The translations under genes and the position numbers were made by a program. The notes beneath the pieces are model-generated. The model saw nothing but the letters and a program-made list of their open reading frames with translations, did not search any database and was not told where the DNA came from. Positions 28,534 to 32,668 of a stretch of 64,000 nucleotides of DNA are shown here, one piece after another (the stretch's first letter is position 1; each line of letters opens with the position of its first letter). This stretch comes from Bryobacterales bacterium (GTDB lineage: Bacteria > Acidobacteriota > Terriglobia > Bryobacterales > UBA6623): contig JAPOOG010000074.1 in assembly GCA_026713545.1 (NCBI GenBank), positions 1-64,000 on the forward strand. Direction: 5' to 3'.

Positions 28534-28559
28534 AACTTTTTCCTTCCGAACGCGTCTAA
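28534..28559 (+). promoter_or_regulatory. Candidate ECF-sigma autoregulatory promoter
   Basis: AACTT at 28534-28538 and CGTCTAA at 28553-28559 are spaced like the AACTT/GTCTAA elements recognised by many RpoE/SigW-type ECF sigma factors. The pair lies directly upstream of an ECF sigma gene, as expected for autoregulation. The preceding 250 bases (28283-28533) hold nothing else recognisable. Confidence 0.5.
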
Positions 28560-28580
28560 AGGTTATTGCAGGTAGCCAGA

Positions 28581-29195
28581 GTGGAAACAGTCAGCGTGGC
28601 GAACCAGCCGTGGCCCGAAGCGCTCAGCGAGAAGACTCTGATCCGGGCTGCCCAGCGGCAGGACCACGATGCCTTCGAGCAGCTTGTTCGGCGCTACGAC
28701 CGCAGCGTGCTGAGGGTGGCGCTGCATCTGCTGCGGTCTGAAGAAGACGCCCGCGACGCTTACCAGGAGATTTTCCTGCGGACCTATCGCAGTCTGAACA
28801 GCTTCCGGTTCCAGTGCAGCTTCCACACCTGGCTCTATCGGGTTGCCACGAATGTCTGTCTCGACTTCCTGCGCCGCAAGAGAGCGCACAGGGACCGATG
28901 GACGGCTGCAGGGACGAGCGCTGAAGGCCTCGGTCCCCTCGATACGGCGTCTGACGACAGGGCTTCAAGCAATCCGGACAGCCTCCTCGCCTGCCGCGAC
29001 ACCGCTGGGCGCATCGCCAAGGCGCTCGAACTGTTGACGCCGAAGGAGCGCATGGTTTTCGAGCTGAAGCACTACGAAGGTCTGCGGCTGCGGGTGATCG
29101 GCGACCGGCTCGCGATCAGTGAGGAAGCCGCGAAGAACGGTCTTTTCCGGGCGCACCGGAAACTGAGGGCGGCATTGAAGGACGTGCCACGATGA
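28581..29195 (+). CDS. ECF-type RNA polymerase sigma factor (RpoE-like)
   Basis: About 204 residues. Region 2 includes FEQLVRRYDRSVLRVALHLL and EDARDAYQEIFLRTYRSL, ending in FHTWLYRVATNVCLDFLRR. A variable linker follows, then region 4 LLTPKERMVFELKHYEGL with the helix-turn-helix AISEEAAKNGLFRAHRKLR. The start is uncertain: GTG 28581 has AGGTAG five bases upstream; TTG 28566 and GTG 28596 are alternatives. Its TGA overlaps the ATG of the anti-sigma gene, so the two are coupled and probably form a sigma/anti-sigma pair. Confidence 0.9.
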   Translation: METVSVANQPWPEALSEKTLIRAAQRQDHDAFEQLVRRYDRSVLRVALHLLRSEEDARDAYQEIFLRTYRSLNSFRFQCSFHTWLYRVATNVCLDFLRRKRAHRDRWTAAGTSAEGLGPLDTASDDRASSNPDSLLACRDTAGRIAKALELLTPKERMVFELKHYEGLRLRVIGDRLAISEEAAKNGLFRAHRKLRAALKDVPR

Positions 29196-30148
29196 GCTGC
29201 GAATCCATCCAATCACAAATCAGCCTCTATCTCTACGATGAACTTGGCTCAGTCGAAACGGAAGCGCTCGAGGCGCACGTCGAATCGTGCGGCGCCTGTT
29301 CTCGGGCTCTCGCAGAGGAACGGGAGTTCTTCGCCGCGATGAGCGAACTGCCCTCGGCGGAGCCGTCGCACGCGTTGGTGGCCGAGTGTCGCCATGATTT
29401 GATGCGCGAGGTCTACCGGACGGCGCCGGAACCGTCTACGGCGTGGACCCGATTCACACGGTGGTTTTCCGGAGAGACTGAGAACCAATTCGCCTGGCGG
29501 CCGGCTTTGGTCGTCGCATCGCTTGCGCTGGCTTTCGTCGTTGGCCGTACCACAAGTTCTGATTTTTCGGGGCTGTTTACAGATGTTGAAGAGCCGTCGT
29601 TGGAGGGGCCGATGACTTCGTTTCCATCCGAACCTCTGCTCTCCGGCATAGAGTCGATCGCCCTCGACCCTCGTCGGAACCGGGTCGAGATTGTCGTGGA
29701 GGAGGTGAGCCGGCGCAGGTTCGCTGGACATCCGCACGACCCCCAAATCCACGACTTGCTCCTTTCGACGGCCCGTAATTCCCCGAACTCCAGCGCCCGG
29801 CTTGACTCGCTGGACATCCTGACCGGACGGGTCGACGAGCTCGATGTGCGCCGGACGTTGTTGCATTCGATGGTCAGGGACCGGAATCCGGGGGTAAGGC
29901 TGAAGGCGCTCGAGGCGTTGAGACGGCAAAAAGACGACCCGGAGGTCCGGCGGGCGCTGATCGACGTTCTCCGCCGCGACCCGAATTCCGGTATGCGCGT
30001 CTACGCCATCGATTTGCTCACTGAGCAGCCCGACCGCAAGTTGGTTGGTGTGCTGCAAGAGCTTGTCGAGACCGAAGGCCATGAATATGTCCGGTTGCGG
30101 TCGAGACGGGTGCTGCAGGATTTGAACGCCTCGGTTGACCGTTTCTAG
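29192..30148 (+). CDS. Zinc-finger anti-sigma factor with HEAT-repeat sensor region
   Basis: A 318-residue protein. The N-terminus is a zf-HC2 anti-sigma zinc finger (Cys3, His29, Cys33, Cys36). A membrane helix lies at about 104-119 (ALVVASLALAFVVG). The C-terminal part (about 186-312) has HEAT-like helical repeats (SARLDSLDIL, NPGVRLKALEALRR, DPEVRRALIDVLRR, NSGMRVYAIDLL). By topology the zinc finger would hold the sigma factor in the cytoplasm and the HEAT region would lie outside the membrane as a sensing or docking surface. A HEAT domain is not part of a standard anti-sigma factor. Confidence 0.85.
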   Translation: MSCESIQSQISLYLYDELGSVETEALEAHVESCGACSRALAEEREFFAAMSELPSAEPSHALVAECRHDLMREVYRTAPEPSTAWTRFTRWFSGETENQFAWRPALVVASLALAFVVGRTTSSDFSGLFTDVEEPSLEGPMTSFPSEPLLSGIESIALDPRRNRVEIVVEEVSRRRFAGHPHDPQIHDLLLSTARNSPNSSARLDSLDILTGRVDELDVRRTLLHSMVRDRNPGVRLKALEALRRQKDDPEVRRALIDVLRRDPNSGMRVYAIDLLTEQPDRKLVGVLQELVETEGHEYVRLRSRRVLQDLNASVDRF

Positions 30149-30174
30149 ATGATGGAAACCGACGGAGGATGAAA

Positions 30175-31353
30175 ATGAGACTCGTCAACTGGACGGCCGG
30201 ACTGCTGGTTTTTGGGCTCGTGCTGCCGGCTGTGGGCGCCATCCGGAAGGAAGGCCGCTATTGGGTCGAGGAGAAGGAAGGCGCCGTACTCGCCGGTACG
30301 AGGCTGCGGGTTGCATCGGTTGGTCCGGTGTCCATCACGGGAGACACGGGGAACGATGTCCGGTTCAAGGTCACGCGGAGAGTGCGCGCCGACAGTCAGC
30401 GGGAAGCAGAGCGATGGTTCGAGGAAGCGCCTCTGACGGCCTCGCTGCAGAACGCAACGACAGTGATTTCTCTGCAAAGCCCTCGCTGCGGGCGCTGCGG
30501 ATTCTCAGCTTCGCTCGAAGTGTCAGCCCCTCGACGCACCCATCACACGACGATTGACTCGGAGGGCGGCTCGCTCACGGCGCAAGCGCTGGAGGGTCGG
30601 CTCAATGCCAGTACGCAAGGAGGGGCGATCCTCATCGAAGATATCGGCCGCTCGGTGCGTGCCGACACGGCGGGAGGCAATATCACGCTGCGCGCGATCG
30701 GGGGGGAGATTTTGTGTGACACCGCCGGCGGAGCGATCTCGCTCGATGGGGCCGGCGCGAACGCCACGCTCACCACAAGCGGCGGATCGATCACAGCTCG
30801 CAACGTTGCCGGGACCCTGCGGACGGAAACCGCCGGCGGGAGCATCACGGCGGAGAAAGTCGGCCGCAGCCTCGTTGCCGAGACCTCGGGCGGTTCGATC
30901 AACGTGACCGACGTGGCCGGCCGTGTTCGCGCCGAGACCGCCGGAGGATCGGTGAACATCCTCTCGGCGCCGCATGGAGTCCGGGCCGAGACCGCCGGCG
31001 GCAAAATCTATCTGCGTGATGTCGCGGGCGCCGTCACGGCCTCCAACGCTACCGGAAGCATCCAGGCTTATTTCCTGCGCGGCGGGCTGCTGCAGGATTC
31101 CGTTCTGGAGACGAATGTGGGCAGCATCGACGTCTGGCTGCCGCCGGATCTCAAAGTCACGATCGAAGCCATCGTCGAATTGACGAACAACGACCGCCGC
31201 ATCCAGAGCGACTTCGAGGCGATCCGTATCCGGCGGGACCGGGACCGGTTCGGCCCAAGCTCGATTACAGCGGAGGGCGCTCTGAACGGAGGCGGCCCGG
31301 TCCTCCGCATTCTGAACACGGCCGGTCACATCAAGATCCACCGGCTGGAATAG
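30175..31353 (+). CDS. Exported DUF4097 repeat (beta-helix) protein
   Basis: A 392-residue protein with a signal peptide (MRLVNWTAGLLVFGLVLPA). ATG 30175 is preferred because GGAGG abuts an earlier ATG at 30169 with no spacing. About eight repeats of roughly 20 residues with cores TAGGNI, TAGGAI, TSGGSI, TAGGSI, TSGGSI, TAGGSV and TAGGKI build a right-handed beta-helix of the DUF4097 adhesin-like type. It is the third gene of the sigma/anti-sigma operon, so it is probably an output gene made on envelope stress or contact. Its partner is unknown. Confidence 0.82.
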   Translation: MRLVNWTAGLLVFGLVLPAVGAIRKEGRYWVEEKEGAVLAGTRLRVASVGPVSITGDTGNDVRFKVTRRVRADSQREAERWFEEAPLTASLQNATTVISLQSPRCGRCGFSASLEVSAPRRTHHTTIDSEGGSLTAQALEGRLNASTQGGAILIEDIGRSVRADTAGGNITLRAIGGEILCDTAGGAISLDGAGANATLTTSGGSITARNVAGTLRTETAGGSITAEKVGRSLVAETSGGSINVTDVAGRVRAETAGGSVNILSAPHGVRAETAGGKIYLRDVAGAVTASNATGSIQAYFLRGGLLQDSVLETNVGSIDVWLPPDLKVTIEAIVELTNNDRRIQSDFEAIRIRRDRDRFGPSSITAEGALNGGGPVLRILNTAGHIKIHRLE

Positions 31354-31378
31354 AGAAACCTTCTGAAGGAGAGAAGCC

Positions 31379-32287
31379 ATGACACAGTTGAGTCGCTTGA
31401 GTCTCGGATGCCTGGTTGCCTGGGTGGCCGCGTCCGCGCAAGTGGTGATCGACCCTGCCCGGCCGTTTCCCGGCTACGGCTCGTATGGGTCGGGGGTCGA
31501 GGTCTATGCCGCACAGTTCGGGAAGGGGGGCAGCTATCTCGGCGTCCATCTGATCGAGGTGGACGAAGACAGGGCCGGCGAGTTGAACATGTCCGCCCCG
31601 TCCGGCGTCGAGATCACCAGTGTGGCGGAGCGCAGCCCGGCCGATCAGGGCGGCATTGTCGAAGGGGATGTGATCCTGGCCTTCCGGAATGAGAAGGTGG
31701 CGGGCGTCGAGCACTTCATGCGGTTGGTTCGAGAAACGCCGGTCGGTCGTGAGGTGGCGGTCGCCGTTTGGCGAGACGGCTCCGAGCAGGCACTGGAGGT
31801 AAGAATCGGAAAGCGTCCGACCGCCATGGTGGTCAACCCGCTGCTGAAGAACTGTGAGGATGGAGAGGACTGCCAAGGTCAAGCTTTCAACTTCTCGATG
31901 CCGGACATCGATATCCATGTTCAGGTGCCTCAAATGGTCATGCGAACGAGGGTCCTGGGAGCGCAGCTCGAGCCCGTCAAGGGTCAGCTTGGCGAGTACT
32001 TCGGAGTGGAAGAGGGAGCGCTGGTCTGCTCGGTGGCCTCGAATTCGCCGGCGGAGCGTGCTGAGCTTCAAGCGGGTGATGTGATCATCGCGGTGGACGG
32101 GGAAACCGTGAGAACGCCTCGTCAGGTGCACAGTGCGATCCGGTCCGCTGATGAAGACGGCGTCCCGATCGAGGTGATGCGCGACCGGTCCAGGAAAACG
32201 CTCCGGATTGAGGCCTCGCGAGCGGGTGGCAGGTGGGGGCAGCCCGCTCGGCGGAGAGGACCGGCGGTGCAAACGCGGCGGCTCTAG
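31379..32287 (+). CDS. Exported protein with two PDZ domains
   Basis: A 302-residue protein with an N-terminal export signal. PDZ 1 (about 52-148) contains SYLGVHL and ADQGGIVEGDVILAF; PDZ 2 (about 195-285) contains GALVCSVASNSPAERAELQA and GDVIIAVDG. No protease domain is attached, unlike HtrA/DegP. It is the last gene of the sigma operon, 25 bases after the DUF4097 gene. A periplasmic scaffold or protease adaptor recognising C-termini is a reasonable guess. Confidence 0.82.
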   Translation: MTQLSRLSLGCLVAWVAASAQVVIDPARPFPGYGSYGSGVEVYAAQFGKGGSYLGVHLIEVDEDRAGELNMSAPSGVEITSVAERSPADQGGIVEGDVILAFRNEKVAGVEHFMRLVRETPVGREVAVAVWRDGSEQALEVRIGKRPTAMVVNPLLKNCEDGEDCQGQAFNFSMPDIDIHVQVPQMVMRTRVLGAQLEPVKGQLGEYFGVEEGALVCSVASNSPAERAELQAGDVIIAVDGETVRTPRQVHSAIRSADEDGVPIEVMRDRSRKTLRIEASRAGGRWGQPARRRGPAVQTRRL

Positions 32288-32305: not shown

Positions 32306-32470
32306 CTAATAAAAGTCCGCGCAACTCATGAAGTAGCCGCAGGTCTCACACAATAATTTGCACCGGCGCTCGGTAAGGCGCTTGGAACAGCACGGGCAGT
32401 AAGAGGCAGCGTCCGGATGGTCCTGCAATGTAGGTTGATGCGTTTCCGCGGTAGTCTTCGCGTCTTCCAT
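32306..32470 (-). CDS. Small zinc-ribbon protein (54 residues)
   Basis: Reads ATG at 32470 to TAG at 32308-32306. A polar N-terminal third is followed by CPCCSKRLTERRCKLLC and ETCGYFMSCADFY, giving Cys pairs at 25/28 (or 27) and 41/44 plus extra Cys at 37 and 50. The ending CGYFMSC-x-DFY is recognisable from a small conserved zinc-ribbon family seen in acidobacterial and related genomes, as far as I recall. A GGGAGAG lies about 12 bases upstream of the ATG. It converges with the PDZ gene and is divergent from the E1 alpha gene. Function is unknown. Confidence 0.75.
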   Translation of the reverse strand: MEDAKTTAETHQPTLQDHPDAASYCPCCSKRLTERRCKLLCETCGYFMSCADFY

Positions 32471-32668
32471 GGGCCGCAACACTCTCCCTCGGGTTTGTTT
32501 TTTGATCGATTGTATCAGCTTGGGGACGCTGTCACTGCTAGCGTACGGTCTGCGGATATTACCTTTCGGATACGAGCTCGCTGGACCGAGTTTCTGAGGG
32601 TGTGTGCTGTCCCACCGTAAAGTGGTGGTTGCAAACCATTTGTGGGTTCGGTAAGGTCACTTGATGGT

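Follow-up and report, generated by a model that had tools for sequence, protein, structure and literature searches.

A conserved ECF sigma factor operon of the Bryobacterales encoding a HEAT-repeat anti-sigma factor and a double-PDZ protein

Organisation of the operon and its products

The window, that is, the whole stretch of 64,000 nucleotides that was analysed, carries four tightly packed genes behind a promoter of the ECF type (Table 1). All four reading frames of the operon described in the initial annotation were found where it had placed them, and the domains that it had assigned to the sigma factor, the anti-sigma factor and the double-PDZ protein were borne out by Pfam. The sigma factor gene shares its last 4 bases with the anti-sigma factor gene. 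Pattern scans gave no housekeeping promoters or terminators above chance, and no RNA family was found. Downstream follows a pyruvate dehydrogenase E1 gene, and a 58-residue frame rich in CxxC pairs lies between it and the operon on the minus strand (32306-32482).

Table 1. Features of the operon, with positions in the window.
Feature	Position	Strand	Basis
ECF-type promoter AACTTT-N12-CGTCTAA	28534..28559	+	footprint conservation upstream of the sigma gene
ECF sigma factor gene	28581..29195	+	Sigma70_r2 and r4, TIGR02937
Anti-sigma factor gene (zf-HC2, one membrane helix, HEAT repeats, conserved C-terminal tail)	29192..30148	+	Pfam, structure model, profile matches
Tail codons for A-S-V-D-R-F-COOH	30128..30145	+	residue conservation, synonymous codon variation
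Gene for probable DUF4097/Toastrack beta-helix protein, predicted exported, 18-residue coils	30169..31353	+	family alignment, LiaG match, structure model
Gene for double-PDZ protein, predicted exported, without protease domain	31379..32287	+	PDZ_2, HtrA/DegP PDZ relatives

The first product contains Sigma70_r2 (residues 40-106, E=9e-18) and r4 (153-202), and no region 3 model of Pfam was matched, so that it consists of regions 2 and 4 only, as is typical of an ECF sigma factor. It also matched TIGR02937 (6e-31), and its identity to relatives is 47-61%. Its frame is open from TTG 28566, with GTG 28581 and GTG 28596 in the same frame. Since TTG 28566 would sit at about the likely transcription start, either of the two GTG codons appears to be the likelier start.

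The second product matched zf-HC2 at residues 3-36 (E=4e-9, above the cut-off) and HEAT_2 at 189-268 (E=7e-11), and hydropathy places one hydrophobic helix near residues 100-118. With an HxxxCxxC zinc finger at its N-terminus and a gene adjoining that of the sigma factor, it classifies as a zinc-finger anti-sigma factor. In profile searches, residues 1-63 matched the RsiW structure 5wuq, and there were also matches to alphaRep HEAT-like proteins. An AlphaFold model, built on a shallow alignment of two near-identical sequences (the window and one 96% relative), shows eight HEAT helices over residues 184-317, with which Foldseek retrieved generic helical-repeat proteins only. In the alignment of relatives, identity to the window protein is 32-43%, and the zinc ligands C3, H29, C33 and C36 are kept in 52-53 of 61 loci. 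At L035, L037, L039 and L041, from sister genera of the same family (f1), the zinc-finger cysteines are gone and the operon and, nearly, the end of the protein are kept. The window's genome contains a second, weak anti-sigma-like gene (L002, G000:C38:9924-10448) with 30% identity over residues 2-188. No description of a HEAT-type anti-sigma factor was found in the literature searched.

The third protein of the window has no Pfam match at E 0.1. The label of DUF4097 beta-helix given to it initially is supported by way of its relatives, 18 of 20 aligned members of the family matching DUF4097, and of its model, a beta-helix with pLDDT 77 from an alignment just as shallow, again of the window's protein and its 96% relative; taken by itself, the window protein supports the label weakly. 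The protein matched the LiaG model at 3e-5, and the top PDB match of its model, a weak one (E 0.06), was 4qrk, one of two structures given as Toastrack in the accessible text of PMC11237479. DNA repeats at a spacing of 54 bases, or multiples of it, occupy positions 30718-31011 of the gene and match the 18-residue coils. The fourth protein, of 302 residues, has two PDZ domains in separate stretches (PDZ_2, E=8e-28), and Pfam found only PDZ-type domains and no trypsin-like protease domain in it, which sets it apart from the HtrA proteases. In the PDB, these domains resemble the PDZ domains of HtrA proteases and above all those of DegP/DegQ, and their carboxylate-loop motif [YFW]LG[VI] is conserved. 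Both proteins have signal-peptide-like N-termini by hydropathy. The domains of the proposed exported, protease-free double-PDZ protein are thus as described, its export being a prediction from the N-terminus.

Conservation of gene order and promoter

Relatives were collected by whole-genome searches, a first collection scan having given one near-identical locus only. The near-identical locus L032 (96% identity) lies on a Bryobacterales metagenome contig, which marks the window's genome as acidobacterial. Of 150 Bryobacterales genomes, 146 gave a match to the anti-sigma protein, and 60 loci were taken across the genera of the order, or 61 with the window included. Among the 60, the four-gene arrangement is complete in 45, lacks only DUF4097 in 13, is cut by a contig end in one, and is reduced to the sigma and anti-sigma genes in one. 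The order sigma, anti-sigma, optional DUF4097 and PDZ is seen in 58 of the 60, with genes overlapping or close; in two of the 13 loci without DUF4097 the PDZ gene is 664 and 1592 bases away. At L091, the sigma and anti-sigma genes, the latter ending in ...KASPVTY, are followed by neither a PDZ nor a DUF4097 gene. An opposite-strand gene run, whose products resemble flagellar proteins and FliA by eye, faces the operon downstream of the PDZ gene at L058, L070, L072, L082, L090 and L092.

Beyond the Bryobacterales, the module was also found in orders belonging to the same class and in a single additional family of the phylum. The 40 loci compared from those other orders and from elsewhere in the phylum all have the sigma and HEAT anti-sigma genes side by side; a PDZ gene is present in 26 and all four genes in 22, some of these loci being cut by contig ends. 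Conservation of the four-gene order, on which the initial annotation had made its proposal depend, therefore holds within the order and extends to others. On the anti-sigma tree, the DUF4097 gene shows about 10 gains or losses, and it is therefore optional; judged by gene content, the core of the module in the class is sigma factor, anti-sigma factor and PDZ protein. A second, weaker DUF4097-like gene separates the first one from the PDZ gene at L151, L155, L158, L163, L169, L170 and L174-L176, all from other orders.

The promoter claimed for the operon is present and conserved in relatives at its exact spacing. Upstream of the sigma gene, AC-N-TT-N13-CGTC occurs in 40 of the 61 loci of the order, compared with 0.3 in shuffles, while any other spacing tried gave 0 to 4 of the 61; in other orders it occurs in 14 of the 40 loci (0.1 expected in shuffles). 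A scan for the same promoter had been proposed. In 24 genomes, six of the seven matches to the strict consensus lie directly upstream of the operon. No regulon stood out, the looser AACNTTN13-14CGTCYA giving 5 matches in the window's genome and 6 for the reversed control. A wide or enriched regulon was accordingly dropped as a candidate, the loose pattern equalling its control and the strict consensus finding mostly the operon itself; it is not supported. By this phylogenetic footprint, autoregulation, as proposed at the outset, is well supported, and the best-supported target of the sigma factor is its own operon.

The carboxyl end of the anti-sigma factor

Across the order, the anti-sigma factor closes with the six-residue pattern A-S-x-[G/E/D]-x-[F/Y]-COOH. 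The alanine is kept in 61 of 61 loci and the serine in 60; the chain ends in an aromatic residue in 60 as well, F in 42 and Y in 18, and in H in one. On an anti-sigma tree built without the tail, the last residue underwent about 10 changes, nearly all of them exchanges of F and Y, the single H being the sole non-aromatic end. Among loci, the tail is encoded by different synonymous codons, and the distance to the following gene ranges from -23 to more than 1000 bases. These two observations rule out a cause at the DNA level, such as the ribosome-binding site of the next gene, and they indicate selection on the protein sequence of the tail.

HtrA-type PDZ domains, as in DegS, bind free C-termini that have an aromatic last residue and lie outside the membrane (PMC8103513). 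The tail looks like a PDZ ligand, and in this order the double-PDZ protein of the operon may bind it, a tentative assignment to which we give somewhat less than even odds. Outer-membrane proteins have similar ends: of the 32 outer-membrane-protein frames looked at in this genome, 31 have F, Y or W as their last residue, and its two Omp85 proteins end in QTF and RTF. The third-last residue is mostly F, L or V in outer-membrane proteins and G, E or D in the anti-sigma tail, so that any mimicry of these proteins by the tail is only partial. In other orders, the anti-sigma factor ends otherwise (PEID, REVQ and the like) and the PDZ gene, with an equally conserved groove, is kept, which rules out an obligate pairing of tail and PDZ gene. 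A role of the tail as PDZ ligand would thus be a lineage-specific elaboration, since related orders have the PDZ gene without such a tail.

The same tail could be structural only, its aromatic residue closing the HEAT solenoid of an ordinary ECF sigma/anti-sigma pair that is accompanied by exported accessory proteins. We regard this as doubtful, though it has points in its favour: in the low-depth model the last helix continues through the tail to residue 317, as it would if the tail simply capped the solenoid, and in relatives from beyond the order the protein stops a few residues sooner or has another end, the HEAT domain being kept. Against it, the free C-terminus holds the alanine, the serine and the aromatic residue fixed among variable neighbours, and a purely structural cap need not fall exactly there. 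The pLDDT of the tail (63) is below that of the HEAT core (80-90), which speaks for a ligand. Given both this lower confidence and the continuous helix, the model does not decide between the two roles.

In the same autoregulated operon, the tail might instead be a cleavage tag read by a PDZ-bearing protease, either HtrA/DegS-like or RseP, in which case the PDZ protein of the operon would work elsewhere, for instance as a chaperone of outer-membrane proteins. This genome does encode three HtrA-type proteases and an RseP-type site-2 protease (G000:C22:88720-89970, over the cut-off) whose frame also matches the HtrA PDZ, and the PDZ gene is retained where the tail is absent. In nearly every locus, however, the PDZ gene comes next after the anti-sigma gene or after its DUF4097 neighbour, an arrangement that speaks for a direct partnership, and we think a cleavage tag rather unlikely. 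That the four genes are mere neighbours with no common function or regulation, for which one could cite the want of housekeeping signals above chance, is highly improbable given the conservation of promoter, gene order and close packing in the Bryobacterales and beyond.

Proposed mode of action and known systems

We read the locus, with a probability of roughly 0.75, as an autoregulated sigma/anti-sigma ECF operon for envelope signalling, similar to sigma-E/RseA and with a different sensor; the four-gene switch probably detects disturbances beyond the inner membrane. The N-terminal zinc-finger domain of the anti-sigma factor would hold the sigma factor, and the HEAT domain, presumably periplasmic, would be the sensor or a platform. 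On a signal, the anti-sigma factor would become open to cleavage first by a site-1 protease and then by RseP, and the freed sigma factor would transcribe its own operon from the promoter, a step to which conservation lends support. The exported PDZ and Toastrack proteins would be the induced output and give feedback. The several same-family relatives without zinc ligands argue against this reading. In the hypothetical sensing step of the initial annotation, HEAT or PDZ domains would bind misfolded or surface proteins and thereby release the sigma factor. As for the earlier suggestion that release of the sigma factor makes more of the beta-helix protein, the promoter fits it, but the repeated gain or loss of DUF4097 shows that the system is not built around this protein.

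For this order, the reading may be extended. The C-terminus -A-S-x-[GED]-x-[FY]-COOH of the anti-sigma factor would dock as a ligand on the double-PDZ protein, and unfolded outer-membrane proteins, with their aromatic ends, would compete for it, with the PDZ protein taking RseB's part as a titratable cap. The tail would then be an outer-membrane-protein-like PDZ ligand, and unfolded proteins would act as the trigger by competing for the cap and not by activating a protease. We consider this competition unlikely enough to be put forward as speculation.

Among known systems, RpoE-RseA-RseB with DegS/RseP (sigma-E of E. coli; AlgU-MucABCD in Pseudomonas) shares with the present operon an autoregulated ECF sigma factor, a single-pass anti-sigma factor, exported partners in the operon, the involvement of PDZ domains, RseP in the genome and a promoter of the AACTT...TCTAA type. 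Here, however, a HEAT domain replaces the periplasmic domain of RseA and zf-HC2 replaces RseA_N, of which no match was found in this genome; the operon is without an RseB-like gene, the PDZ protein is without a protease and a Toastrack gene is added. By the tests made, the operon works like sigma-E/RseA and yet is not an RseA system. SigW-RsiW of Bacillus and other zinc-finger anti-sigma factors have in common with it the zf-HC2 N-terminus and the profile match to RsiW, but they differ in what lies past the membrane helix, here a HEAT domain, and in the PDZ and Toastrack partners. The PDZ tandem of HtrA/DegP/DegQ is the closest to that of the operon, whose protein lacks the serine protease domain. 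An operonic linkage of DUF4097 proteins and sigma factors is proposed in general terms in the accessible text of PMC11237479 on Toastrack stress neighbourhoods (LiaG), and the present operon shares it; the HEAT anti-sigma factor and the PDZ partner are not described in that text. No account of the whole four-gene system was found in the literature searched, and what is new here is the tail conserved on the anti-sigma factor throughout the order.

Acidobacteriota are abundant in soil. A single operon that is near-universal in one of their orders, and in which both the promoter and a C-terminal peptide are conserved, lends itself to a few direct tests. Should the tail bind the PDZ protein, this would be a logic of sigma factor release that works without a PDZ-activated protease.
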